Below, one piece after another: positions 24,553 to 35,210 of a stretch of 64,000 nucleotides of DNA. A program made the position numbers and the translations under genes. Location of the stretch: positions 62,001 to 126,000 of the forward strand of contig CAILNX010000017.1 of assembly GCA_903835685.1 (NCBI GenBank), given 5' to 3'. Position 1 is the first letter of the stretch, and every line of letters begins with the position of its first letter. The notes under the pieces were generated by a model, which saw only the letters and a list, made by a program, of their open reading frames with translations, was not told the origin of the DNA and ran no database searches. The stretch comes from an uncultured delta proteobacterium (GTDB lineage: Bacteria > Desulfobacterota > Desulfovibrionia > Desulfovibrionales > Desulfovibrionaceae).

Positions 24553-25857
24553 ATGATCTGGCAGCCCAAGTACGAGACCATGGACCGCGCGGCCCTGGAG
24601 CAGCTTCAGTTGGAGCGCCTCCAGGCCACGCTCACCCGCGTGTCCCGCAATGTCCCGTTCTACCGGATGAAATTCGAGGAGATGGGCATCGATCCGGACG
24701 AGTTCCGCTCCCTGGAGGATGTGCGCCGCCTGCCCTTCACCGGCAAGGCCGATTTGCGGGACAACTACCCCTACGGCATGTTCGCCGTGCCCCTGCGCGA
24801 GGTGGTCCGGCTGCACGCCTCGTCCGGGACCACGGGCAAGCCCGTGGTGGGGGGCTACACCAAGAACGACATCGCCCGCTGGACCGAGCTTACGGCCCGG
24901 GTGCTTTCGGCCGCCGGGGTGACCAAGGACGACGTGATCCAGATCACCCTGGCCTACGGGCTTTTTACCGGCGGGTTCGGGTTCCATTACGGGGCCGAGC
25001 TCATCGGGGCCTCGGTCATCCCCAGCTCCAGCGGCAACACCCGCCGCCAGGTGGCCATCATGCAGGATTATAAGACCACCACCCTGGTGAGCACGCCCAG
25101 CTACGCCCTGTATCTGGCCGACACCATGGACGAGATGGGGGTCAACGCCAACGCCCTGGGGCTCAAATACGCCCTGTGCGGGGCCGAGGTCTGGTCCGAG
25201 GGCATGCGCCGGGAGATCCAGGACCGGCTCAAGGTGGTGGCCACGGACAACTACGGGATCAGCGAGGTCATGGGGCCGGGCATTGCCGGGGAATGCCAGG
25301 AGCGCGCGGGCCTGCACCTGAACGAGGACCATTTTCTGGTGGAGATCATCAATCCCGAGACCTGCGCCCCGGCCGAGCCCGGCCAGGTGGGCGAACTGGT
25401 GCTGACCACCCTGACCAAGGAGGCCTTCCCGCTCATCCGCTACCGCACCGGGGACCTGACCCGGCTCCTGCCCGGGATCTGCGCCTGCGGCCGGACTTTC
25501 ATGCGCATGGAGCGGGTCCTGGGCCGGGCCGACGACATGTTCACGGTCAAGGGGGTGAACGTGTTTCCCTCCCAGGTGGAGGCCGTGCTCTGCTCCATCA
25601 AGGGCCTCACCCCGCACTACCAGATCGAGCTGGACCGGGAAGGCCCCCTGGACAAGGCCACGGTGTTCGTGGAGGCCGACGCCGAGCTGCTGGTGGACCG
25701 CATCCGCGAGGCCCAGGCCGTGCAGGAGACCACCCGCAAGCGCCTGTTCAGCGAACTGGGCGTGCATTTCGAGGTCAAGCTCATGGAGGGCAAGACGCTC
25801 ACGCGCTTCGAGGGCAAGGCCCGGCGGGTCAAGGATAAGCGGACGTTTTCGGCCTGA
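24553..25857 (+). CDS. paaK: Phenylacetate--CoA ligase family protein
   Basis: 434 residues from ATG 24553 (TAAGGAGAGG just upstream). An ANL-superfamily adenylating enzyme: P-loop HASSGTTGKPVVGGYT, DNYGISEVMGPGIAGEC, YRTGDLTRLLPGICACGR, MERVLGRADDMFTVKGVNVFP (read in parts) and the C-terminal lysine region FEGKARRVKDKR. It would convert phenylacetate or another aryl acid to its CoA ester, e.g. after breakdown of an imported aromatic amino acid. It is separated from livF by ten bases and so likely part of the transport operon. Its TGA abuts the stop of the convergent pilin gene with no gap. Confidence 0.88.
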   Translation: MIWQPKYETMDRAALEQLQLERLQATLTRVSRNVPFYRMKFEEMGIDPDEFRSLEDVRRLPFTGKADLRDNYPYGMFAVPLREVVRLHASSGTTGKPVVGGYTKNDIARWTELTARVLSAAGVTKDDVIQITLAYGLFTGGFGFHYGAELIGASVIPSSSGNTRRQVAIMQDYKTTTLVSTPSYALYLADTMDEMGVNANALGLKYALCGAEVWSEGMRREIQDRLKVVATDNYGISEVMGPGIAGECQERAGLHLNEDHFLVEIINPETCAPAEPGQVGELVLTTLTKEAFPLIRYRTGDLTRLLPGICACGRTFMRMERVLGRADDMFTVKGVNVFPSQVEAVLCSIKGLTPHYQIELDREGPLDKATVFVEADAELLVDRIREAQAVQETTRKRLFSELGVHFEVKLMEGKTLTRFEGKARRVKDKRTFSA

Positions 25858-27441
25858 TCAGTAAAATTTCACGGCCAGGTCCCGGACGGTCACCTGTTGG
25901 TGGCTGGCGCCCGTGCCCTCGGTGAAGCCGAACTGGACGTGGCGCAAATTGGCGGTGGTGGCCGCGTCGAGCTGGGTGGAGTTGGTCAGCTTGGCCGTGG
26001 CCGTGTAACTTCCCGTGGACGTGGTCACATCGTTGCAGTTCTGGCAGTTGAACCAGACCGTGGTGGTGAAGTTGCCCTTGGAGGCCGCCAGACTGCTGGT
26101 CCGGTTGATCTCCACCCGTACCGGGATGCGCGTGACGCCCGCGTTCGTGTCGAACCAGGTGGCGCTGCCCGAATTCCAGAAACCGTGGTTATTGGCCTGG
26201 GTCACGGTGTTGCAGGTGGGGTTCATGGGTTCGCTGGTCACGCCCGTGCTCCCGGCCCCGTGGGTGTTGTCGTCGCCCGCGTTGCTGCCCACGGAGTTGC
26301 CGCCCACGAAGTTTGGATTGTTGAACCCCCAGTAGACGATAGCCACGTGCTGGTTGTTCGTCCCGCAGCCCCCTCCGCAGCCGTTGTTCAAGCCGTTGTC
26401 CCCGTAGCAGATGTAGGGGTCGAACTCCACGCCGATCTTGGGGGAGACGAGAAAGGGCGCGTTGCCCGCGTCAGACCCCTGGTTCAAGTAGCCGCTGGCA
26501 TAGCCCATGGCCGAGCCCCGGCCCCCGCAGGACTTGTTGCTGTTGGTCTCGGCGCTGGCCACGGCGAAGGTGAACCCGTCGGCGAGCTGTCCGGCGTAGC
26601 CCGCGGGCTTGGCCATGGTGAAGGTGAAGTAGGCCCGCAGCCCGTGAGAGAAGGTGCAGTTGCCCAGGATGCAGGGATAGGTGCTGCCCTGGTACCAGGT
26701 GCAGCCGTAGGTGTAGGTGCCCGAGGTGGACGCGTTGGCCTGCTGGGCGTCGGAGAAGCCGAGCAGGAGAGACCCGTCGGAGTTGCGGCTCACGCCCAGA
26801 GGCGCGGCGGCGCCCGCTGTCGGAACCGCGTTGAAACCGCTGGGGCCGGGGCCGCCGGGGCCGGAACCGCCGGGGCCGGGACCCAGGGTGATGATCCCCG
26901 AGGTGCTGTTGCTGTCGAAGGACAGGGGCTGGCAGACGATGCGGTAGAGTTGGCTGAAGGTCATGTAGTCGGCCAGGTCGTCGCCCACCTTGCTCAGATT
27001 GCTGGCCGGTTGGGTGTAGTTCCCATCGGACTTGCCGTTAGGCCCGAGGCTGGCCAGGACAAAGGCCACGTCGCTCACCGTGCCCGTGGTCGTGGTCACG
27101 GACAGGGGGCTCGGGCAGGAACTGAACATGCACAGATTGACCGTGGCCCCGGTCAGACCTGACGAGGGGACATACTTGTACAGATTGCCCCAGGCGTCCT
27201 TGACCTGGAACATGCTGTCCGTGGCCAGGGGCAGGCGGCGGTTGGCGATGGCGTAGCCGATGATCTTCTGCTTGAGCGCGGCCAGGTTCTCCCGGCCCGT
27301 GGAGATTTTGTCCTGCCGGATGGTGGTCATGACCGTGGGCACGAGCACGGCGGCGAGGATGCCCATGATGATGAGCACCATGGCCATTTCCAGCAGGGTG
27401 AACCCTGGGCTGGGCCTGAAACGGCGGTCTGCGGTGGTCAT
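25858..27441 (-). CDS. Giant pilin-like protein with L-type-lectin-like domain (pilin A)
   Basis: 527 residues. Class III prepilin leader ending at G13, then FTLLEMAMVLIIMGILAAVL with the conserved glutamate at mature position 5. Residues 40-170 form a pseudopilin-like core with AFVLASLGPNGKSDG and DDLADYMTFSQLYRIVC, reminiscent of the GspG calcium loop. A Gly/Pro linker (187-202) leads to a C-terminal beta-sandwich (about 245-527). There DGFTFAVAS, VEFD (338-341), NNQHVAI (H365), VRVEINRTS and HVQFGFTEGTGASHQQ follow the order of legume/bacterial L-type lectins, including the E-x-D...H metal ligands. GGGAGGGGG precedes the ATG. Probably exported to a pilus tip or pseudopilus; the sugar-binding role is inference. 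Confidence 0.8.
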   Translation of the reverse strand: MTTADRRFRPSPGFTLLEMAMVLIIMGILAAVLVPTVMTTIRQDKISTGRENLAALKQKIIGYAIANRRLPLATDSMFQVKDAWGNLYKYVPSSGLTGATVNLCMFSSCPSPLSVTTTTGTVSDVAFVLASLGPNGKSDGNYTQPASNLSKVGDDLADYMTFSQLYRIVCQPLSFDSNSTSGIITLGPGPGGSGPGGPGPSGFNAVPTAGAAAPLGVSRNSDGSLLLGFSDAQQANASTSGTYTYGCTWYQGSTYPCILGNCTFSHGLRAYFTFTMAKPAGYAGQLADGFTFAVASAETNSNKSCGGRGSAMGYASGYLNQGSDAGNAPFLVSPKIGVEFDPYICYGDNGLNNGCGGGCGTNNQHVAIVYWGFNNPNFVGGNSVGSNAGDDNTHGAGSTGVTSEPMNPTCNTVTQANNHGFWNSGSATWFDTNAGVTRIPVRVEINRTSSLAASKGNFTTTVWFNCQNCNDVTTSTGSYTATAKLTNSTQLDAATTANLRHVQFGFTEGTGASHQQVTVRDLAVKFY

Positions 27442-27467
27442 GATCCCCCTCCCGGGTATGGATGCCG

Positions 27468-27794
27468 TCACCATCCCTTGCCCCAGTCTTGGCCCGGCGA
27501 GTTGCACGGGCCGCAGAGGTCGCACGGGATGGCCGGGCGAGGGGCCGAGCGGTGCTTGCCCGCCAGGCAGGAGGCCTGGCCCGCCGGACAGGTCCAGACC
27601 GTGCTGGCCCCGCCGGGGTTGATGCAGGTGACCTTGTCCTGCTGGGCGGATTCCTGGAGCTGGCAGGAGCGGGTGGGGACCTTGCATATCCGTGCCCCGG
27701 TGGACAGGGCCATCATGGCCCGGCCCTCGGCCTGGAGCAGAAACGAAAGGGCCATGAGGAGGAGGCAGATGCGGATGGTCCGTTTCAAGCGCAT
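27468..27794 (-). CDS. Small secreted cysteine-rich protein in the pilin operon
   Basis: 108 residues from ATG 27794 (AAAAGGA upstream); an open frame continues further upstream inside pilin B and is rejected. Signal peptide MRLKRTIRICLLLMALSFLLQAEG, then a mature part with eight cysteines (CKVPTRSC, VTC, WTC, ASC, and PCDLCGPC close to the end). I recognise no family. It is 31 bases after pilin B and 26 before pilin A in transcription order, so it is probably a partner of the pilins, perhaps disulfide-stabilised at the tip. Confidence 0.7.
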   Translation of the reverse strand: MRLKRTIRICLLLMALSFLLQAEGRAMMALSTGARICKVPTRSCQLQESAQQDKVTCINPGGASTVWTCPAGQASCLAGKHRSAPRPAIPCDLCGPCNSPGQDWGKGW

Positions 27795-27825
27795 GGAAGG
27801 TCCTTTTCCTTGAGTTTCCTCGCGT

Positions 27826-29574
27826 TCATTGCGGCCAGGCCCGGAAGCGCATGGCTGCGTCGCTGAACCAGATCCCGTGGTTCGCGTCCGTGAAGGAGCC
27901 CATGCTGTAGAAGCCAAGCTCGTACCGGGTCGCCAGCCAGGAGCCACTGGACGGGGTGGTGAAGGAGGAGTCCCGAACCGTGGCCGTGTCCGTGAGCAGG
28001 GTGGGCGCGGTTCCCTGTGACACGGCGGGATTCACGGTCCAGCCCGAGATGAGCGTGAAATAGTCGTATTTCGTGGCGTTCCAGCTTCCGCTGTAGAGGT
28101 TGTAATAGCTGCTGGTTCCCACGGTCTCGTTGGGCGGATACGACGGGACGGGGGAGGTGGCGTGGAGCGTTACCATGCAGGAGTCGCTCGTGTAGGTCCC
28201 GTTGGGGTAGTAGACCTGCCGGGAGGCGTTGTTGGTGGCCACGGCGTCGGGAGTCCGGGTGAAGTGGGGGCAGGGCGTGTAGTTCGGGTACCCGGCGGCT
28301 GGCCCGTACTTGGAGGAGGCGTCGCCGTACAGGGCCTGGATGTCGTTGACTTTCACCCCGCTCACGGTTCGCTCCCGGACCCGGACCATGATCACGGAAT
28401 TGTCCGTGACGCACTGTCCGTCGTAGGTCCACTGGTTCCCGCGCAGGTAGTTGTCCGGATCCACGTTTTTGTACGCCAGCCAGTCCCAGTAGAGGATGCC
28501 GTTCACCGGCGTCTGCTTCCAGAGCACCAGGAGGCGGATTCCCTGGAGGTTCGGGAAGTTCGGCTTCAGCGTGCTGGGGATGAAGTCGTTGGACACGGTG
28601 TGGTCCCCGTACATCATGTAGGACAGGCCATAGGTCTGGTTGCCCCCGGTCACCGGGTTCAGGCGGAAGGCCAGCCCCGAGAGTCCGGTGGGCTGCAGGT
28701 AGCCCCAGGCGTATTTCGCCTGGAAGTCGTAATGCAGGTAATAGTTCAACTGGGACCAGGCCGAGCCCATCTGCGCGGGCTTGTTGAAATAGGCCGTGTA
28801 GAGCTGGACCGCGTTGACGGCGTTGGACTTGGTGGTGGGGACGCTGGTGGAGGGGCTGCCGCTCATGACCGTCCAGGTCCCGGCCCCGGATCCGCTCTGG
28901 CCCGAGACGTTGGGGGCCCAGCTCACGCTGGAGAAATTGGGGCTGGCCGAGGACAAGGAGTCGAACCCGCTTCCGCTGAAGACCGGGGGGGGGGCCTTCT
29001 GACTCTGCTTGTTACAACTGACCATGGACTGGAGATAGGGCAGGGTCACGTAGTCCAGGATGTCGTCGAACCCGCCCGCGCCCAGGGGGGGCAGGGCCAG
29101 GGGGTTGGCCGTGGTGGCGTTGTTGGTATTGGTATAGTCGGCCCCGCTGTGGGCCTCGAATTGCCGGTTCTGCCCGGCCGAGACCGTGAAGAAGGCGATG
29201 GGCTGGTTCACCCCCCGGATGCGCGTGTTGGAGGTGGCGCTGTTCAAGGTCAGCCCGCTCGTGCTGAGTCCGGACTGGGTCAGTTCCTGGGCCGGGCGGT
29301 AGATGAGCTGCTCCCCGAAGCGGCCCTGCTTGTGGCCCAGGGCCGAGAAATCGTTCTGATCCGGCAGGTAGCAGTGGGCGATGGCAAACCCGATGACCTC
29401 GTCCCGCAGGGTGCGGGTGGAGGTCTTGGCCTCCTTGTTCACCTCCCGGTTGACCCGGGAGAGCACCTTGGGGATCACGGCGGCCGCTATGAGCCCGACC
29501 ACCACCATGAGCATGGCCATCTCGATGAGGGAGAACCCGTGATCGTGGCGGGATCGGTCTGAAATCTTGGTCAT
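27826..29574 (-). CDS. Giant pilin-like protein with unique C-terminal domain (pilin B)
   Basis: 582 residues. Leader MTKISDRSRHDHG, then FSLIEMAMLMVVVGLIAAAVI with Glu at mature position 5. A core region contains DDILDYVTLPYLQSMVSC (170-187), matching the DDL-DYVT block of pilins A and C. A Ser/Gly/Pro-rich linker (about 195-250) leads to a C-terminal domain of some 330 residues, rich in Tyr, Asn, Thr and Ser, that I do not recognise. It has GIWFSDAAMRFRAW at the very end, which could be the last strand of a beta-sandwich. Middle gene of the pilin operon. Confidence 0.75.
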   Translation of the reverse strand: MTKISDRSRHDHGFSLIEMAMLMVVVGLIAAAVIPKVLSRVNREVNKEAKTSTRTLRDEVIGFAIAHCYLPDQNDFSALGHKQGRFGEQLIYRPAQELTQSGLSTSGLTLNSATSNTRIRGVNQPIAFFTVSAGQNRQFEAHSGADYTNTNNATTANPLALPPLGAGGFDDILDYVTLPYLQSMVSCNKQSQKAPPPVFSGSGFDSLSSASPNFSSVSWAPNVSGQSGSGAGTWTVMSGSPSTSVPTTKSNAVNAVQLYTAYFNKPAQMGSAWSQLNYYLHYDFQAKYAWGYLQPTGLSGLAFRLNPVTGGNQTYGLSYMMYGDHTVSNDFIPSTLKPNFPNLQGIRLLVLWKQTPVNGILYWDWLAYKNVDPDNYLRGNQWTYDGQCVTDNSVIMVRVRERTVSGVKVNDIQALYGDASSKYGPAAGYPNYTPCPHFTRTPDAVATNNASRQVYYPNGTYTSDSCMVTLHATSPVPSYPPNETVGTSSYYNLYSGSWNATKYDYFTLISGWTVNPAVSQGTAPTLLTDTATVRDSSFTTPSSGSWLATRYELGFYSMGSFTDANHGIWFSDAAMRFRAWPQ

Positions 29575-29593
29575 GGCGCGGCTCGATTCCCGG

Positions 29594-31141
29594 CTACCGG
29601 ATGCGGAAGCCGGAGGATGAGATTTGCACGTTGAGCACCTTGTCCTTGTCCGCGCCCATGGTCCAGCCGATCCGGACCCGCTTGAGGTTGGTGATGTTGG
29701 TGGCCGATGCGGACCAGTCCCGGTTGTCGTACACCTTCACGTCGCTGGCGTTCTGGAAGTGACGGTAGTCCACGGTCAGGTCCGCGAACAGCGGGCTGGT
29801 GGAGTTCCTGATCCAGGCCGTGGTGTTGAAGGTGTTGGAGCCTGTGTTGCGGTCCATGCGGACGCGCACCTCGTATTCCTGCCCTTTGAGCCAGTTGGGA
29901 TTGGTGAACAGGTACACGGGCCGACCCGGAAGGCCGTCCGTGGCGTTGCGGTCGTACCCGGGATTGCTGCTGACCGGGGCGAGCGTGCTGTTGTGGCGGT
30001 TGTCGTCGTTGACCGGTGTGTTCGCGCCCCAGAACAGGGCGGCCATGTGGTTGTTGGTGGTGCGCGAACCGCTGGGGTCGTGGCGCGGCCCGCAGCCCAC
30101 CTGCTCGTCCTGGGCCCCCGCGCATTCCCCGTCGAACTCGACGCCCGCCTTGGGCGACTGGATGGTGCGGTAGGTGAGCGAGGCGTTGGAGTTCGTTCCG
30201 GCATAGGCCATGGGGCCGCTGCCTTCCTGGCCGCAGGGAAAGTAACTGGGCTCGGACGCGCCCAGGGTGTTCGAGGCCACCACGTAGGAGAACCCGCCCA
30301 TGCTGTCCGCGCTGTAGGTGAACTTGAAGTAGGCGTCGATGGTCTTGTTGAAAGTGCAGGTTCCCAGGGAGCAGTTGCCCGTGGTCAGGGGCTGCGAGTC
30401 GTAGATCCAGATGCAGGCCCCGAAGTCCGAGGTGGAGCCGCCCGAGCCGAAGGGATCGGCCTGATGCTGCACGCTGACCTGGTTGTTGTCGACGCTGATG
30501 GTGGCCCCGTTGGCAGCCCTGGCGTTGGAGGCGACTGCGGTGTTGGCCGCCGTGCGTCCGGCCAGGTCCGAGCCGATGGGCGGGGTGTTCTGGCTGGCCG
30601 CGCAGACCTGGTACTTGAGCTGGTTCAGGGTGACGTAATCCACCAGGTCGTCCTTGGGCGCGCTGATGTCCGTGGGCACCAGGGTTCCCCCGGTGGGCAG
30701 GATGTCCCGCACCCGGTTGGGGCCGTCGCTGGACAGGACAAAGGCCGTGGCGTTGGTCTTGCCGCCCTTGACGACGAGGTTCGGGATGGTGGTCAGGGAG
30801 GAGTCCGAGGCCTGGCAGATGTCGTGGCCGGTGAGAAAGGCGTCCGGCCAGTAGCGGTAGGCGTTTTTCCAGGCGTCGGTGGTGCGGCCGGTCACGCTCA
30901 AGCTTGTGGGTAGGCTGCGCCGGAGCATGGCGTAGCCGATGATCTCGTCCTTGACCGAACGCAGGGAGCCTTTGGCCTGGGTGATCTTCTCCCGCTGGAC
31001 CACGGTCGTGATGGGCGGGACGATCAGGGTGGCCAGAATGCCCAGGACCACGAGGACCATGGCCATTTCTATCAGGGAAAATCCGTGCTTCATTCCCGTG
31101 TTCGCCCTGGGGCCAGAGGGTTGTTGATGGGCCGACGCCAT
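29594..31141 (-). CDS. Giant pilin-like protein with L-type-lectin-like domain (pilin C)
   Basis: 515 residues. Leader ends at G20, then FSLIEMAMVLVVLGILATLI with Glu at mature position 5. The core has AFVLSSDGPNRVRD and DDLVDYVTLNQLKYQVC (164-180). The C-terminal domain (about 240-515) parallels pilin A: GACIWIYDS, GNCSLGTCTF, DAYFKFTY, GGFSYVVAS, VEFD (334-337), NNHMAALFWG (H365), EVRVRMDRNT and RVRIGWTMG. Translation from 31141 places its start four bases after the pilin D stop; ATG 31093 is possible but lacks a ribosome site. Likely exported and assembled with the other pilins. Confidence 0.8.
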   Translation of the reverse strand: MASAHQQPSGPRANTGMKHGFSLIEMAMVLVVLGILATLIVPPITTVVQREKITQAKGSLRSVKDEIIGYAMLRRSLPTSLSVTGRTTDAWKNAYRYWPDAFLTGHDICQASDSSLTTIPNLVVKGGKTNATAFVLSSDGPNRVRDILPTGGTLVPTDISAPKDDLVDYVTLNQLKYQVCAASQNTPPIGSDLAGRTAANTAVASNARAANGATISVDNNQVSVQHQADPFGSGGSTSDFGACIWIYDSQPLTTGNCSLGTCTFNKTIDAYFKFTYSADSMGGFSYVVASNTLGASEPSYFPCGQEGSGPMAYAGTNSNASLTYRTIQSPKAGVEFDGECAGAQDEQVGCGPRHDPSGSRTTNNHMAALFWGANTPVNDDNRHNSTLAPVSSNPGYDRNATDGLPGRPVYLFTNPNWLKGQEYEVRVRMDRNTGSNTFNTTAWIRNSTSPLFADLTVDYRHFQNASDVKVYDNRDWSASATNITNLKRVRIGWTMGADKDKVLNVQISSSGFRIR

Positions 31142-31145
31142 GAGC

Positions 31146-31829
31146 TCATTCCTGCCGGATGGCGTCCATCAACTCGCGCGAGGTGACGATCAGATAGATA
31201 TCATCCCGGTGGCCGGTTTGGAAGTCCGGGCGGTTGACCGAGTCCAGGAAATTGGCCTGCCGTCCGACCGGAAAGCGGTTGCCGTAGGTGGTGCTGTCCG
31301 CCTTGCCGTCCGGGCCGTAGCTTAAGAGGATGAAGGCCACGTCGGGATGGGGCGCGCCCAGGTGGTCCGTGGCGTTGGAGGCTGCGGCCGGAGCCGTGCG
31401 GGTCTGGTTCCGAGCCTGATCGGTGATGATGGAGTTCTGGCGCGCGGCATTGCCCAGGCCCCCGATGGCGTCGACCCCGGCCAGATAGTAGACGGGCCTT
31501 TTCCATGTATCTGTTCCAAGGCCGGGCTGGCACAGGCAGGCGTCCACGTCCAGGGTCATATCCGCGCACAGGGCGGTGGTGCTGTTGAAGGAGGGGTAGC
31601 GTTCGTCGAAAACCGCCCGGCGCACCAGGCAGTCCTTGACCTGCTGGAGAATGGAGGCGGTCTTGGCGATCTCCCGGCTGCTCTTGAGGGATATCCAGGC
31701 CGTGTACCCCGTGCCCACGAGAATCCCGGCCACGATGAGCACGATGGCCAGCTCCACCAGGGAGAACCCCGGGCTGGCCTGGAATTTCAGGGCTCGGGGG
31801 CGGCGGGGGACAGGGGGCGTGGATGGCAT
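31146..31829 (-). CDS. Pilin/pseudopilin-like protein (pilin D), first gene of the operon
   Basis: 227 residues from ATG 31829, which has GGAGAG just upstream; ATG 31871 would add 14 residues but has no ribosome site. The leader ends SPG, then FSLVELAIVLIVAGILVGTG with Glu at mature position 5. The core contains VAFILLSYGPDGKADS and DDIYLIVTSRELMDAI, homologous to the blocks of pilins A-C, but no large C-terminal domain. It may be the assembly-initiating minor pilin, onto which the larger ones are built (inference). Four cysteines could form disulfides. Confidence 0.8.
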   Translation of the reverse strand: MPSTPPVPRRPRALKFQASPGFSLVELAIVLIVAGILVGTGYTAWISLKSSREIAKTASILQQVKDCLVRRAVFDERYPSFNSTTALCADMTLDVDACLCQPGLGTDTWKRPVYYLAGVDAIGGLGNAARQNSIITDQARNQTRTAPAAASNATDHLGAPHPDVAFILLSYGPDGKADSTTYGNRFPVGRQANFLDSVNRPDFQTGHRDDIYLIVTSRELMDAIRQE

Positions 31830-31907
31830 GCTCTCTCCAGCGCGGGCTGGCGGATCGGGTTGTGCGGTCATGCGGCCCGGTTATGAAAGATACCGCACAC
31901 TTTCCTG

Positions 31908-31936
31908 ATAATGGTCCTGGATGGCGGGCTTGTCAA
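31908..31936 (-). promoter_or_regulatory. Sigma-70-type promoter of the pilin operon
   Basis: On the minus strand TTGACA (31936-31931), a 17-base spacer and CATTAT (31913-31908). The -35 is a perfect match and overlaps the last codons of hldC. Transcription would start near 31900, about 70 bases before pilin D, making the pilin genes a separate unit. Confidence 0.75.
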
Positions 31937-32523
31937 CCGTTGGAGCGGCCGCCTGCTTGGCCCTCCTGGCGGATGCGCGCGATAAGGCTCGTGGTGGAGA
32001 ACCCGGGCACCAGCGGCAGGCTGCGCACCACCCCGCCTCGGGCCTCGACCGCCTCCCGGCCCACGATGCGGGACACGTCCCAGTCCCCGCCCTTGACCAG
32101 GACCTCGGGCTCTATGGCGGTGATGAGTTCGAGCGGCGTGGACTGGGCAAAGGGGACCACGTAGTCCAGGCAGGACAGCCCGGCCAGGACAAAGGCTCGC
32201 TGGGCCATGGGGTTCACGGGCCGATCCGGGGACTTGTTCAGGGAGCGCACCGAGGCGTCGCTGTTCAGGCCCAGGATGAGGGCGTCGCCCAGGTCCCTGG
32301 CCCGGCACAGGAGGTCCAGATGGCCCGGGTGCAGGATGTCGAAGCAGCCGTTGGTGAACACCAGCCGGAAATTCGCCGGAAAGGTCCGGCGCAGGCCCAG
32401 GAAGGCCTCCTGGTCCATGATTTTGGCCAGGACCCGGTCCCGGGCTGGGCAGGGAGTTCCGGCGAAGTCGGCCTTGAAGGCTTCCAGGAGGCCGCGCAGG
32501 TCTTCGGTCGGTTGGGAGGGCAT
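31933..32523 (-). CDS. hldC: D-glycero-beta-D-manno-heptose 1-phosphate adenylyltransferase
   Basis: 196 residues from ATG 32523, with AGGAG seven bases upstream. A cytidylyltransferase-fold enzyme: FTNGCFDILHPGHLDLL holds the HxGH nucleotide-binding motif, followed by LGLNSDASVRSLNK and LVKGGDW. It makes ADP-heptose from heptose-1-phosphate, corresponding to the C-terminal half of HldE. A 60-residue N-terminal helical extension precedes it. hldD at 8412 performs the next step. Here it follows a glycosyltransferase cluster, suggesting heptose use by that cluster. Confidence 0.9.
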   Translation of the reverse strand: MPSQPTEDLRGLLEAFKADFAGTPCPARDRVLAKIMDQEAFLGLRRTFPANFRLVFTNGCFDILHPGHLDLLCRARDLGDALILGLNSDASVRSLNKSPDRPVNPMAQRAFVLAGLSCLDYVVPFAQSTPLELITAIEPEVLVKGGDWDVSRIVGREAVEARGGVVRSLPLVPGFSTTSLIARIRQEGQAGGRSNG

Positions 32524-32567
32524 GAATTTCTCCTGGCTCACGGTCGGCGTCAGGGTTCCCTGAAACC

Positions 32568-32646
32568 AAGAAATAATTTAAAATAAAATAAAGGTGTTGC
32601 GTGCGTTCTCATGGGCAAGGCGCAATTCCAATCGCGGCGCGCGCCC
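32568..32646 (+). repeat. AT-rich intergenic element, copy 4 (degenerate core)
   Basis: Starts AAGAAATAATTTAAAATAAA, then TTGCGTGCG, and GCAATTCC at 32622-32629 followed by GCGGCGCG. Core and right module have the same order as in copies 2, 6 and 8, about five bases more widely spaced. It lies between two minus-strand genes. Confidence 0.6.
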
Positions 32647-32671
32647 CTCTTTCGCGGCGTCCCTGCAATCC

Positions 32672-33442
32672 CTATCCCTTTTTGGGCGAAAGCCTGTCCC
32701 CGGGTCCGAAAAGAAGCATTTCCACCCAGTCCAGGCCGAAGTCCAGGCGCTCGGCCTCCTCGTCCATGATCCGGGCCTTGCGCTCCTCGGAAAGCTCCAG
32801 CCGGTCCATGGCCTTGGACGTGGTCAGGAACTCCCGGAAGCGGTCGGTCTGATAGAGGCTTAAGAAGGCCATGTTGGTCCGGCCCGGGTCCAGGGTCAGG
32901 CCGGACTCGGTCAGGCGGGACATGAAGGCCGCGAACCGGTCGTTGAAGGCGTTGTACTCGGCCAGGCCCTGGTCCGTCGACCAGGCCGCGATGTCCCACT
33001 CGGCCTCCTGCTCGAAACCCCGGCAATGGGGCTCGCGCACCAGGAAGAAGCGCTCCGCATGCCCGCCTTCGGGCAGGGCGCGGGTGGCCCGGCCCACCGG
33101 ATAGGTCCGGCAGGAGGCCGGACGGTGGGCGTACACCGAGCAGCCTTCGGCTCGCACAAAGGGGCAACTGGCCTTGGCGTCCGAGAGCATGCGCAGCCGC
33201 AGCAAGGGAAATCCGCTGCCCGGCGCGCGCACCAGCAGCCCGTGCCGCTTGGCGAACGCCTCTCCCCCCAGGCCCAGGGCCTGGCGCAGGCGCAAGGCGT
33301 CGTAGGGGGTGAGGGTCAGCTTCAGGCCCGAGCAGCAGGCGTTGAAGCAGGGCACGTCCGGGTGGCAGGCGAACTGGAAGGACTGCCCGGGCCTGATCTC
33401 GGGCATGTCCTCCAGGAATCGTTCCGTGGGGTCTTGGGTCAT
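32672..33442 (-). CDS. YkgJ-family cysteine-cluster protein
   Basis: 256 residues from ATG 33442 (TGAGGA upstream). The UPF0153/YkgJ-type metal-binding cysteine cluster is CHPDVPCFNACCSG near residue 26, with later cysteines in SCPFVRAEGCSVYAHRPASC typical of the family. It probably binds an Fe-S cluster or zinc; the function is unknown. It follows the GT2 gene after seven bases and is likely cotranscribed with it. Confidence 0.85.
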   Translation of the reverse strand: MTQDPTERFLEDMPEIRPGQSFQFACHPDVPCFNACCSGLKLTLTPYDALRLRQALGLGGEAFAKRHGLLVRAPGSGFPLLRLRMLSDAKASCPFVRAEGCSVYAHRPASCRTYPVGRATRALPEGGHAERFFLVREPHCRGFEQEAEWDIAAWSTDQGLAEYNAFNDRFAAFMSRLTESGLTLDPGRTNMAFLSLYQTDRFREFLTTSKAMDRLELSEERKARIMDEEAERLDFGLDWVEMLLFGPGDRLSPKKG

Positions 33443-33449
33443 GGCGTCC

Positions 33450-35147
33450 TCATGAGGTCCGGTCCAACCCCCGGGCCTTTTCGCTGACATCGTCCAGGAG
33501 CAGGGCCTGCTCCCACTTGGCCAGGGCCAGGATTTCGCTGCGCGGATGCATGGTCTGCATCTTGTACTTGTTGGCCAGGGCATTGGCCAGGGCCACGGGG
33601 TCCGTGCGGCTGGCCGCGCCCGTGCTCTTGCGGTGGCCCACGGCCAGATGGCCCTGGTACACGCCCGCCCGCCCGGCCTTGGCCGAGCGCAGGTCCCGCT
33701 CCACGTCGTCGTACTGGGTGGGCGAGAGAAAGAGGGAGAAATCCCCGACCGCAGGCAGATCGGCCGTGCGGAACAGATGGCAGCAGCCCGTGACCGAGAG
33801 GCAGGGCCTTAAGTAGTCGAAGCGGCCCAGGTCCGGCTCCTGGATGTGCAGGTCCGAGAGGCTGAAGGGGTTGGGCTCGTCAGCGGTCAGGTCGATCTCG
33901 GGCTGTTCCGGGCTGGCCTGGGGAGGCAGGACCAGATGCAGGTCCGCGCTCTGGAGCCGGGTGGGCGCGGCGAAATCCCTCACCTTGCAGCCCCAGACCC
34001 CGGCCTCGGGATAGGCCCGGACTGCTGCGCCCAGGCGAGCACGCAGGTCCACGGGCAGGTCCGTGTCGTCGTCCAGGAAGAGCGCCCAGTCCATGGCTTG
34101 CACCGCTGGCAGGTGCATGAGCCAGTTGCGCGCGGCCGGGGCTCCGATGTTCACCGGCAGGTTCACCGGGACCAGGAGCTGCCCCAGGCGGTCGGCGAAC
34201 CGGGCCAGGACCTCGGCCGTGTGGTCCGTGCACCCGTTGTTCAGCACGAAGATGCGGGCCTGGCCCAGATCGGCCCGGGCCAGATCGGTTTTGGCCAGGC
34301 TGTCCAGGGTGGCGGCCAGGTCCTCGGCCTTGTTGTACGTGTACAGGAGCAGGGCCAGGGACCCGGGCAGCTCGGCCCGTTTAGTGTCCCGGCCCGTGGC
34401 CAGATCAAAGGCGGCCAGCAGGCTGTTGGTCTGCCAGGGGGCCAGGGCCAGGGCCTCGCGGAAATCGTCCAGGGCCTGGTCCCGCTGACCCAAGGACAGG
34501 CGGGCGAAGGCGCTGCGTCCCAGGACCCAGCCCTGGCCAAAGCTGGGGCCAAGGCCCTCCCACAGACCCAGGGCCGCCTCGGCCTGGCCGGAAAGATACA
34601 GGGCGTCGGCCGCCAGTTTCACCCGCACGGCCTCCAGGCCCGAGGGCAGGGGCAGGGCGGCCAAGTCCCGGGTCCAGGCGAAATCCGCCTCGAACACGGA
34701 CAGGGCCATGGCCTGCCGCCGCCAGAACAGGCTCTCGGCCTCGCGCTCCAGGCGGTCGGAGAGATAGGCGCGCATTCGGCCGAGGTCCCGCTTGGCCGCC
34801 AGGCGCTGGTAGTAGGTCAGGTTTTCCGGGGCCTGCCAGTGCTGGTCCAGGAGGCGGCAGATGCGCCGGGCGGGCTCGGGCAGCCAGGGGGACTGTTCGT
34901 CCCCGGCCAAAAAGGAGCGGGCCAGGACCCCGTCCAGGGGGTCGTCGGCCAGGGCGGACAGAAGCATGTCCCGGCACCAGGTAAGGACCCGGGTGCGGTC
35001 CGGCTCGGGTAGGCTGGCGACCTCGGCCGCGCCCATCCGGGCCGCCTCGGTCAGATGGGCCTTGCCCACCGCGCCCAGGGCCAGCCGCGCTTTGAGGCCC
35101 CCAGACATGGCCGCCCAGGCCGCTTCCAGATTCAAGGCTTGGCCCAT
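33450..35147 (-). CDS. Family 2 glycosyltransferase with N-terminal TPR-like helices
   Basis: 565 residues from ATG 35147; GTG 35159 is an alternative. The first 260 residues are helical with TPR-like pairs (GQAEAALGLWEGLG, GQRDQALDDFREALALAP). The GT-A domain follows: LALLLYTYNKAEDLAATLDS, VLNNGCTDHTAEVL and the metal-binding DDDTD in WALFLDDDTDLP. It likely transfers a sugar to a protein or glycan, since TPR-GT fusions often glycosylate flagellin or surface proteins. It sits in the minus-strand cluster that begins with flagellin. Confidence 0.83.
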   Translation of the reverse strand: MGQALNLEAAWAAMSGGLKARLALGAVGKAHLTEAARMGAAEVASLPEPDRTRVLTWCRDMLLSALADDPLDGVLARSFLAGDEQSPWLPEPARRICRLLDQHWQAPENLTYYQRLAAKRDLGRMRAYLSDRLEREAESLFWRRQAMALSVFEADFAWTRDLAALPLPSGLEAVRVKLAADALYLSGQAEAALGLWEGLGPSFGQGWVLGRSAFARLSLGQRDQALDDFREALALAPWQTNSLLAAFDLATGRDTKRAELPGSLALLLYTYNKAEDLAATLDSLAKTDLARADLGQARIFVLNNGCTDHTAEVLARFADRLGQLLVPVNLPVNIGAPAARNWLMHLPAVQAMDWALFLDDDTDLPVDLRARLGAAVRAYPEAGVWGCKVRDFAAPTRLQSADLHLVLPPQASPEQPEIDLTADEPNPFSLSDLHIQEPDLGRFDYLRPCLSVTGCCHLFRTADLPAVGDFSLFLSPTQYDDVERDLRSAKAGRAGVYQGHLAVGHRKSTGAASRTDPVALANALANKYKMQTMHPRSEILALAKWEQALLLDDVSEKARGLDRTS

Positions 35148-35210
35148 GTTATTTCCCACCTTCCACCTTCGGCGAAATTCTTACCTTTCCCGATGCCTCT
35201 TGCCAAACCC

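Follow-up and report, generated by a model that had tools for sequence, protein, structure and literature searches.

Adhesive domains are grafted on pilins in many species, and the mannose-sensitive hemagglutinin (MSHA) pilus is confined to a few Proteobacteria, according to a review (PMC10191384). A survey of modular pilins counted more than 1,200 proteins in 264 architectures, with LamG_3 (PF13385) among the 15 most frequent grafted domains, and itself states that counting by database signatures gives numbers that are too low (Raynaud et al. 2021, PMC8179133). The modular design has been tested by experiment in PilB and PilC of Streptococcus sanguinis (PMC8179133, PMC9934059), where PilC is described as bearing a concanavalin-A-like lectin module that binds sialylated glycans and sulfated glycosaminoglycans (PMC9934059). 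Here, we describe an operon at positions 25858-31936, on the minus strand of a 64,000-nucleotide stretch of DNA ("the window") from an uncultured delta proteobacterium. The pilins of this operon are likely modular minor (tip-type) subunits that display exchangeable adhesive modules on an MSHA-like type 4 pilus. The strategy, modular adhesive pilins, is a known one; what differs here is the host type, the number and mix of modules, and the machinery, and the operon looks like an unusual variant of that strategy.

The five genes are closely packed in the order D, C, B, S, A, with intergenic gaps of 4 to 31 nucleotides (nt); the gap between D and C becomes 52 nt if pilin C starts at ATG 31093.

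31908-31936, minus strand: sigma-70-type promoter-like site, TTGACA-N17-CATTAT, a consensus match only (10/12 positions)
31146-31871, minus strand: pilin D, 241 amino acids (aa), prepilin leader and core with no extra module
29594-31141, minus strand: pilin C, 515 aa (499 aa from ATG 31093), GspG-like core and L-type-lectin-like module
29597-30532, minus strand: lectin-like module of pilin C, Glu/Asp/His triad present, loop-A Asp replaced by Gly (domain E value 4e-73 with profile A3, of which C is itself a member)
27826-29574, minus strand: pilin B, 582 aa, core of the last-pilin lineage (by core profile and tree) and a different C-terminal module
27844-28965, minus strand: B module, tentatively a concanavalin-A-like sandwich
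27468-27794, minus strand: S, 108 aa, signal-peptide-like start and eight Cys in the mature part
25858-27441, minus strand: pilin A, 527 aa, GspG-like core, Gly/Pro-rich linker and L-type-lectin-like module
25861-26838, minus strand: lectin-like module of pilin A, with E339, D341, H365 and loop-A D288 (527-aa numbering; A is a member of profile A3)

All four pilins (A-D) carry a class III leader of the form GF-(S/T)-L-x-E, with the cleavage site between G and F, a hydrophobic stretch and Glu5, in agreement with the initial annotation. PF07963 scored above its cut-off at all four pilin sites in one scan, and in A alone when whole proteins were scanned. The shared core that had been described from its AFVL-S-GPNGK and DD-DYVT blocks is real, in that one core profile, made from 11 pilins with A and C among its rows, matches all four (A, 1e-53; C, 1e-56; B, 1e-35; D, 3e-14). 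We take these blocks to resemble the calcium loop of GspG; the NCBIfam matches of C, B, and A cover just the first ~60 residues of GspG (1e-7 to 1e-9, far below the cut-off). The reported four prepilin genes and the three lengths of 515 to 582 residues stand, although the genes are not strictly consecutive, because S lies between B and A. The description of oversized pilins with extra modules applies to C, B, and A, but not to D, which has no extra module and corresponds to the first pilin gene of the set in relatives, and the B module falls outside the A/C family.

The likeness to the S. sanguinis tip complex extends to a class III signal peptide, a pilin core with a bulky C-terminal module, a size of about 50 kDa for the modular pilins, and a plain pilin that accompanies them (PilA there, D here). 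In contrast, the host is Gram-positive (monoderm) there and secretin-bearing here, PilA lacks the Glu5 found in D, and one vWA and one lectin module there compare with two lectin-like modules and a third module here. Among the matches listed in the open-licence PMC literature, and within the text that they cover, there was neither a legume-type lectin module on a type 4 pilin nor an MSHA system with such lectin pilins. Since the modules of A, C, and B are unseen by Pfam, a count of modular pilins by database signatures would miss them. The operon therefore offers lectin-like pilin modules that are invisible to Pfam, together with a gene set for finding more, and yields a testable idea of how pili change their adhesion target. 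To our knowledge, few of the pilus adhesins found in environmental bacteria are well characterized.

The module of pilin A is predicted to have a legume-type (L-type) lectin fold. An AlphaFold2 model of pilin A, made on an alignment of 11 pilins, contains a C-terminal half in which ten-residue blocks with strands lie mostly at a pLDDT of 62 to 83. A Foldseek search of the model against the PDB gave 452 matches at E ≤10 (109 at ≤0.001); peanut lectin was the best (6.1e-8), and the best 50 of the 452 were legume lectins and ERGIC-53. With VIA, the best match reached Z 17.5 over 214 aligned residues (rmsd 3.5; model residues 175-527). The fold comparison thus points to a concanavalin-A-like sandwich of the legume-lectin type. 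A search independent of the structural model used profile A3 (19 related lectin-like modules, those of pilins A and C included) and matched the PDB chains of PAL lectin (E 0.0023) and 2fmd (0.0084), both legume lectins, followed by an unrelated chain (0.072); no pilin was among these three matches, and the presence of the S. sanguinis PilC chain in the searched set was not checked.

The lectin strands that had been named beforehand in A and C are present, and the ADG, LG, and VEFDT segments of the A3 family align in order with legume lectins. Within the family, PF18483 (L-type lectin) weakly matches 8 of the 19 members at E ≤0.01 (best 2e-7) and PF00139 matches one (3.6e-5); A is not among these members, and its module matched neither model at 0.01. 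By sequence and profile comparison, pilin C can be aligned with A, and its module is of the same family. The proposal of L-type-lectin-like ends is therefore upheld for A by predicted fold and for C by homology with A. Compared with legume and L-type lectins (PF00139, PF18483; 1n3o, 2pel, ERGIC-53), the likeness lies in the predicted fold of A and in the aligned ADG loop, LG loop, and VEFDxY strand of the A/C family, whereas A and C are unmatched by the Pfam models, have longer loops with extra Cys, and are grafted on a pilin, and C lacks the loop-A Asp. Membership of the modules in an ordinary named family was considered and rejected: Pfam and NCBIfam give pilin-type matches only, apart from one weak chance match of pilin C to a potassium ATPase subunit.

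The third module, that of pilin B, is tentatively a concanavalin-A-like beta-sandwich as well. Its model has a pLDDT of 59.5, and Foldseek returned no match at E ≤0.001 (best 0.16); no firm fold match was obtained for this module. VIA aligned it best with CBM66 (Z 11.7 over 142 residues), followed by thrombospondin C-terminal domains and legume lectins at Z of about 10 to 11.

Residues of the expected binding site were surveyed in 32 aligned lectin modules, of which GspG-type cores carry 16 and other carriers of the same bacterial order 9, the remaining 7 coming from outside the order (the L085 and L094 rows were left out). By analogy with legume lectins, we take Glu, Asp, and His to form the metal site and the loop-A Asp to be a sugar residue. 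The metal-site residues (Glu339, Asp341, and His365 in A numbering; Glu-x-Asp ... His) are present in 32/32 modules. The loop-A Asp is present in 19/32, comprising all nine modules on other carriers, 6/16 on GspG-type cores, and 4/7 from outside the order. Pilin A has this residue (D288, in LADGFTFA) and pilin C does not (SMGGFSYV). The modules of A and C should bind glycans, and A, having kept both the metal triad and the loop-A Asp, is the better candidate.

The suggestion that the pilus itself is encoded elsewhere fits the rest of this genome. Contig C32 carries, in a row, an AAA/peptidoglycan-binding protein, an ATPase with an MshEN domain and its cyclic di-GMP (c-di-GMP) motif, a T2SSF protein, three matchless proteins, an MshL-like secretin, a TPR protein, and a major-pilin-like gene cut by the contig end (T2SSE 354.5, T2SSF 157.5, and Secretin 113.3 bits). 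The MshE-type domain of the ATPase exceeds the cut-offs of both MshEN (38.5 versus 23.1) and NF053729 (56.6 versus 38). The names MshM, MshG, and MshN for C32 proteins are presumed from gene order. Prepilin peptidase matches, which had been suggested as a check together with a pilus system, are found on contigs C39 and C20.

In relatives, the pilins and such machinery lie side by side. Pilin A has matches at E ≤0.001 in 52 of 99 genomes (its own included), mostly via the leader, and the match extends into the lectin module in 13 of the 99. Loci of relatives were fetched from the better matches, i.e., chosen by homology, and among them 13 relatives have a D-like frame together with a strong core pilin. 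Genes for MSHA-like machinery lie within the same 8.7 to 19.5 kb as the pilins in 11 of these 13, as read by blastp with the C32 proteins of this genome and with no chance level computed for the linkage; the two others are L173 (19 kb fetched) and L182 (a 6.3-kb contig). A major-pilin-like gene also stands beside the pilins in 7/13. Cargo-bearing pilins occur in the loci of 10 relatives, nine of which are linked to machinery, while the cores of L166 and L175 bear no cargo and the L182 locus is truncated where its contig ends. As in the MSHA system, an ATPase with an MshE-type c-di-GMP domain, a T2SSF protein, an MshL-like secretin, and a TPR protein are thus found both in relatives and on C32. 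Matches of the MshEN type are present in all 14 genomes, those of the 13 relatives and this one (two matches here), but the domain also occurs in other extension ATPases.

We infer from these comparisons that the pilins are assembled into an MSHA-like pilus, are located at its tip, bind glycans, and are under c-di-GMP control. A prepilin peptidase would trim the four prepilins, whose N-terminal helices would enter the filament; D would act as a plain partner, while C, B, and A would each expose a bulky module on the outside of the filament, in A and C a lectin-like one that would bind glycans and in B another one. Because the extension ATPase has an MshE-type c-di-GMP-binding domain, display would follow the sessile state. 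Going by the structural model, the cell probably carries sugar-binding adhesins on pili.

Several results pull in the other direction, and some of them concern the modules. The pilin A model has intermediate confidence (mean pLDDT 62.8, pTM 0.57, with 150 of 527 residues below 50), and the lectin-like fold of pilin C is deduced by homology with A. At E ≤1, neither A nor C shows a lectin domain, or anything else beyond the leader, in Pfam, and the PF18483 matches of relatives amount to 15 to 22 bits against a cut-off of 78.3. The loop-A Asp is missing in 10 of the 16 modules on GspG-type cores, C included, so many lectin modules may bind something else. At the position six residues after the metal Glu, all nine modules on other carriers have Asn, where A has Cys and C has Ala; long inserts in both may shift the alignment at this loop-C Asn position. 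The lectin-like modules may thus have lost sugar binding and serve as structural or protein-binding sandwiches, for cell-cell or matrix contacts or for tip packing, and the concanavalin-A-like class does include protein-binding members. We regard such a loss as possible but rather doubtful, given that Glu, Asp, and His are kept in every module surveyed and the loop-A Asp in A and in all nine modules of the second carrier class; selection on a metal-held sugar site would give this pattern. It would in any case be compatible with display on a pilus and is not exclusive of the tip-pilin interpretation.

Other results concern the filament. The pilins and the C32 machinery are unlinked in this genome, and the C32 secretin scores below the MshL equivalog cut-off (TIGR02519, 231.9 versus 250.2 bits), for which reason the cluster is called MSHA-like. 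The genome has six T2SSE matches and further prepilin clusters on C43 (near a T2SSE match) and C35 (four prepilin genes in a row, with no T2SSE match in the stretch fetched); another filament could therefore take pilins A-D. They might belong to a type II secretion pseudopilus or some other filament, with the modules as secretion tip parts or a cargo dock, and the GspG N-terminus is indeed the best NCBIfam match of the three large pilins. This appears unlikely in view of the MSHA-like neighbors and major-pilin-like genes in relatives, and the C35 and C43 clusters hold their own sets of small prepilins. That the proteins are ordinary surface proteins, with modules tethered by prepilin-like anchors at the inner membrane or in the periplasm and without any filament, is very improbable: mature A, B, and C (514, 569, and 495 residues) are large for filament subunits, yet PilB (50.5 kDa) and PilC (52.8 kDa) of S. 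sanguinis are equally large and are pilus subunits, and the pilins accompany assembly genes in relatives.

If the operon does encode tip-type pilins, a further question is where the modules come from. In a census of 31 fetched loci and the window, made with profiles whose rows include many of the proteins counted, GspG-type cores carried 16 of the 25 lectin modules and one of the eight B modules (the one in this window); the other nine lectin modules and seven B modules lay on pilin-like carriers of a non-GspG type. Each of A, C, and B is therefore a pilin core fused to a domain that is not pilus-specific, for A by predicted fold and for all three by homologous modules on other carriers. Pilin B has matches in 54 of 297 genomes, mostly via the core, with further module matches in G044, G043, G075, and G106. 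The second carrier class has a hydrophobic start without Glu5, which we presume to resemble GspK, PilX, or MshP; a GspK profile match of 0.0058 for one of five such carriers is the only profile hint. In G123, a B-module protein adjoins a lectin protein in a locus with MshE- and MshG-like genes, and a locus with such genes in G040, a member of the same genus, encodes two lectin proteins.

Sister pilins carry other cargo. As in the modular pilins with PF13385, LamG_3 matches occur in L042 (4e-8, over the cut-off) and L051 (3e-5, under it), in contrast to the Pfam-invisible modules of A, C, and B, and a bactofilin-like solenoid is matched in L173 (8.6e-7, over the cut-off) and L039 (6.7e-6, under it). 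The solenoid pilin of G066 (L039:9881-11236) is interrupted by a frameshift, while its L173 relative is open throughout. On a core tree of 35 rows, at least 10 changes are required to explain the cargo labels, compared with a minimum of 4 and with 15.7 for shuffles. As judged from these sequences, cargo is clustered on the core tree, yet has changed several times, one of the changes possibly being an artefact of L182. The label "none" of L182_3_575 is a contig-end artefact that may add one change, L039_9521 holds the frameshift and was kept as is, and the LamG label of L049:10016-11494 comes from its likeness to L042 and L051, without a Pfam match.

Constraints on the trees were also compared, with p values that are weakened because the groups were named after the trees were seen. 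The pilin B core groups with the last pilins of family f4, labeled cargo-free (95/88), one of which (L174_6804) has about 100 extra residues; placement of the B core with the A and C cores was rejected (p 0.004). As to whether the A module was swapped onto another core, the core tree groups A with C and the solenoid pilins (97/89), and the module tree groups the A module with the family-f4 lectins (100/98). An origin of the A and C modules by one recent duplication was rejected (modules as sisters, AU p 0.013), whereas A and C cores as sisters were not rejected (p 0.19), nor was the A core held with the f4 lectin-pilin cores (p 0.26). A single clade of all lectin modules on GspG-type cores was not rejected (p 0.27) either, so a single transfer between the carrier classes is possible.

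A tentative reading of these patterns, which we hold somewhat less probable than its alternatives taken together, is that the pilus tip functions as an array of sockets, in which a few conserved pilin cores in this order accept exchangeable adhesive modules (L-type lectin, LamG, bactofilin-like solenoid, and B module) from a pool shared with the second carrier class of MSHA-like loci. As part of that reading, the B module of this genome would be the only one of the eight surveyed to have moved onto a GspG-type core, and the genome would also hold two diverged lectins that differ in the presence of the loop-A Asp. If so, the adhesion target of the pilus would change by module swap while the assembly part stays constant.

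A scan for the pilin leader pattern kept the best 80 loci, from which no frequency was drawn; profiles found nine frames with lectin modules in eight of these loci, an undercount since the scan used the leader pattern only and the best 80 loci. Among loci with related modules, the pilin-like proteins of L045, L046, and L048 (693-906 aa) have a LamG_3 domain after the lectin module, i.e., two sandwiches per subunit. In L067, L072, L085, L087, and L094 (Rhodocyclales and other betaproteobacteria), frames of 897-1172 aa have a pilin-like start and match the lectin profile in two pieces, with a long insert between them and a weak second piece.

In this genome, two major-pilin-like genes that are much alike lie at contig ends (L054:768-1325, near the start of C62, and L055:9065-9385, at the end of C32), as if the assembly had broken within a tandem pilin pair of the MSHA-like cluster. 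From their size and order alone, two adjacent short T2SSE matches on C58 are candidates for PilT and PilU.

The small secreted protein with eight cysteines that had been noticed between two pilins is S, between B and A, which has a further Cys in the signal region. It had no Pfam or NCBIfam match and no convincing relative in 98 related genomes, where the best non-self match (9e-4) contained three internal stops. The strong sigma-70-type promoter predicted ahead of the set corresponds to the promoter-like site at 31936-31908 (TTGACA-17-CATTAT, 10/12), whose first bases overlap the end of a cytidylyltransferase gene (stop at 31933); sites of this type number five in 25300-32700, compared with 0.7 expected from shuffles. 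That cytidylyltransferase-like gene, which we take to be rfaE2-like, lies upstream of the operon on the same strand, and a convergent AMP-binding ligase gene lies downstream. At 32675-35159, also upstream of the operon, a glycosyltransferase gene is overlapped at its end by the frame of a protein with a CxxCxxCC zinc/iron-chelating domain.

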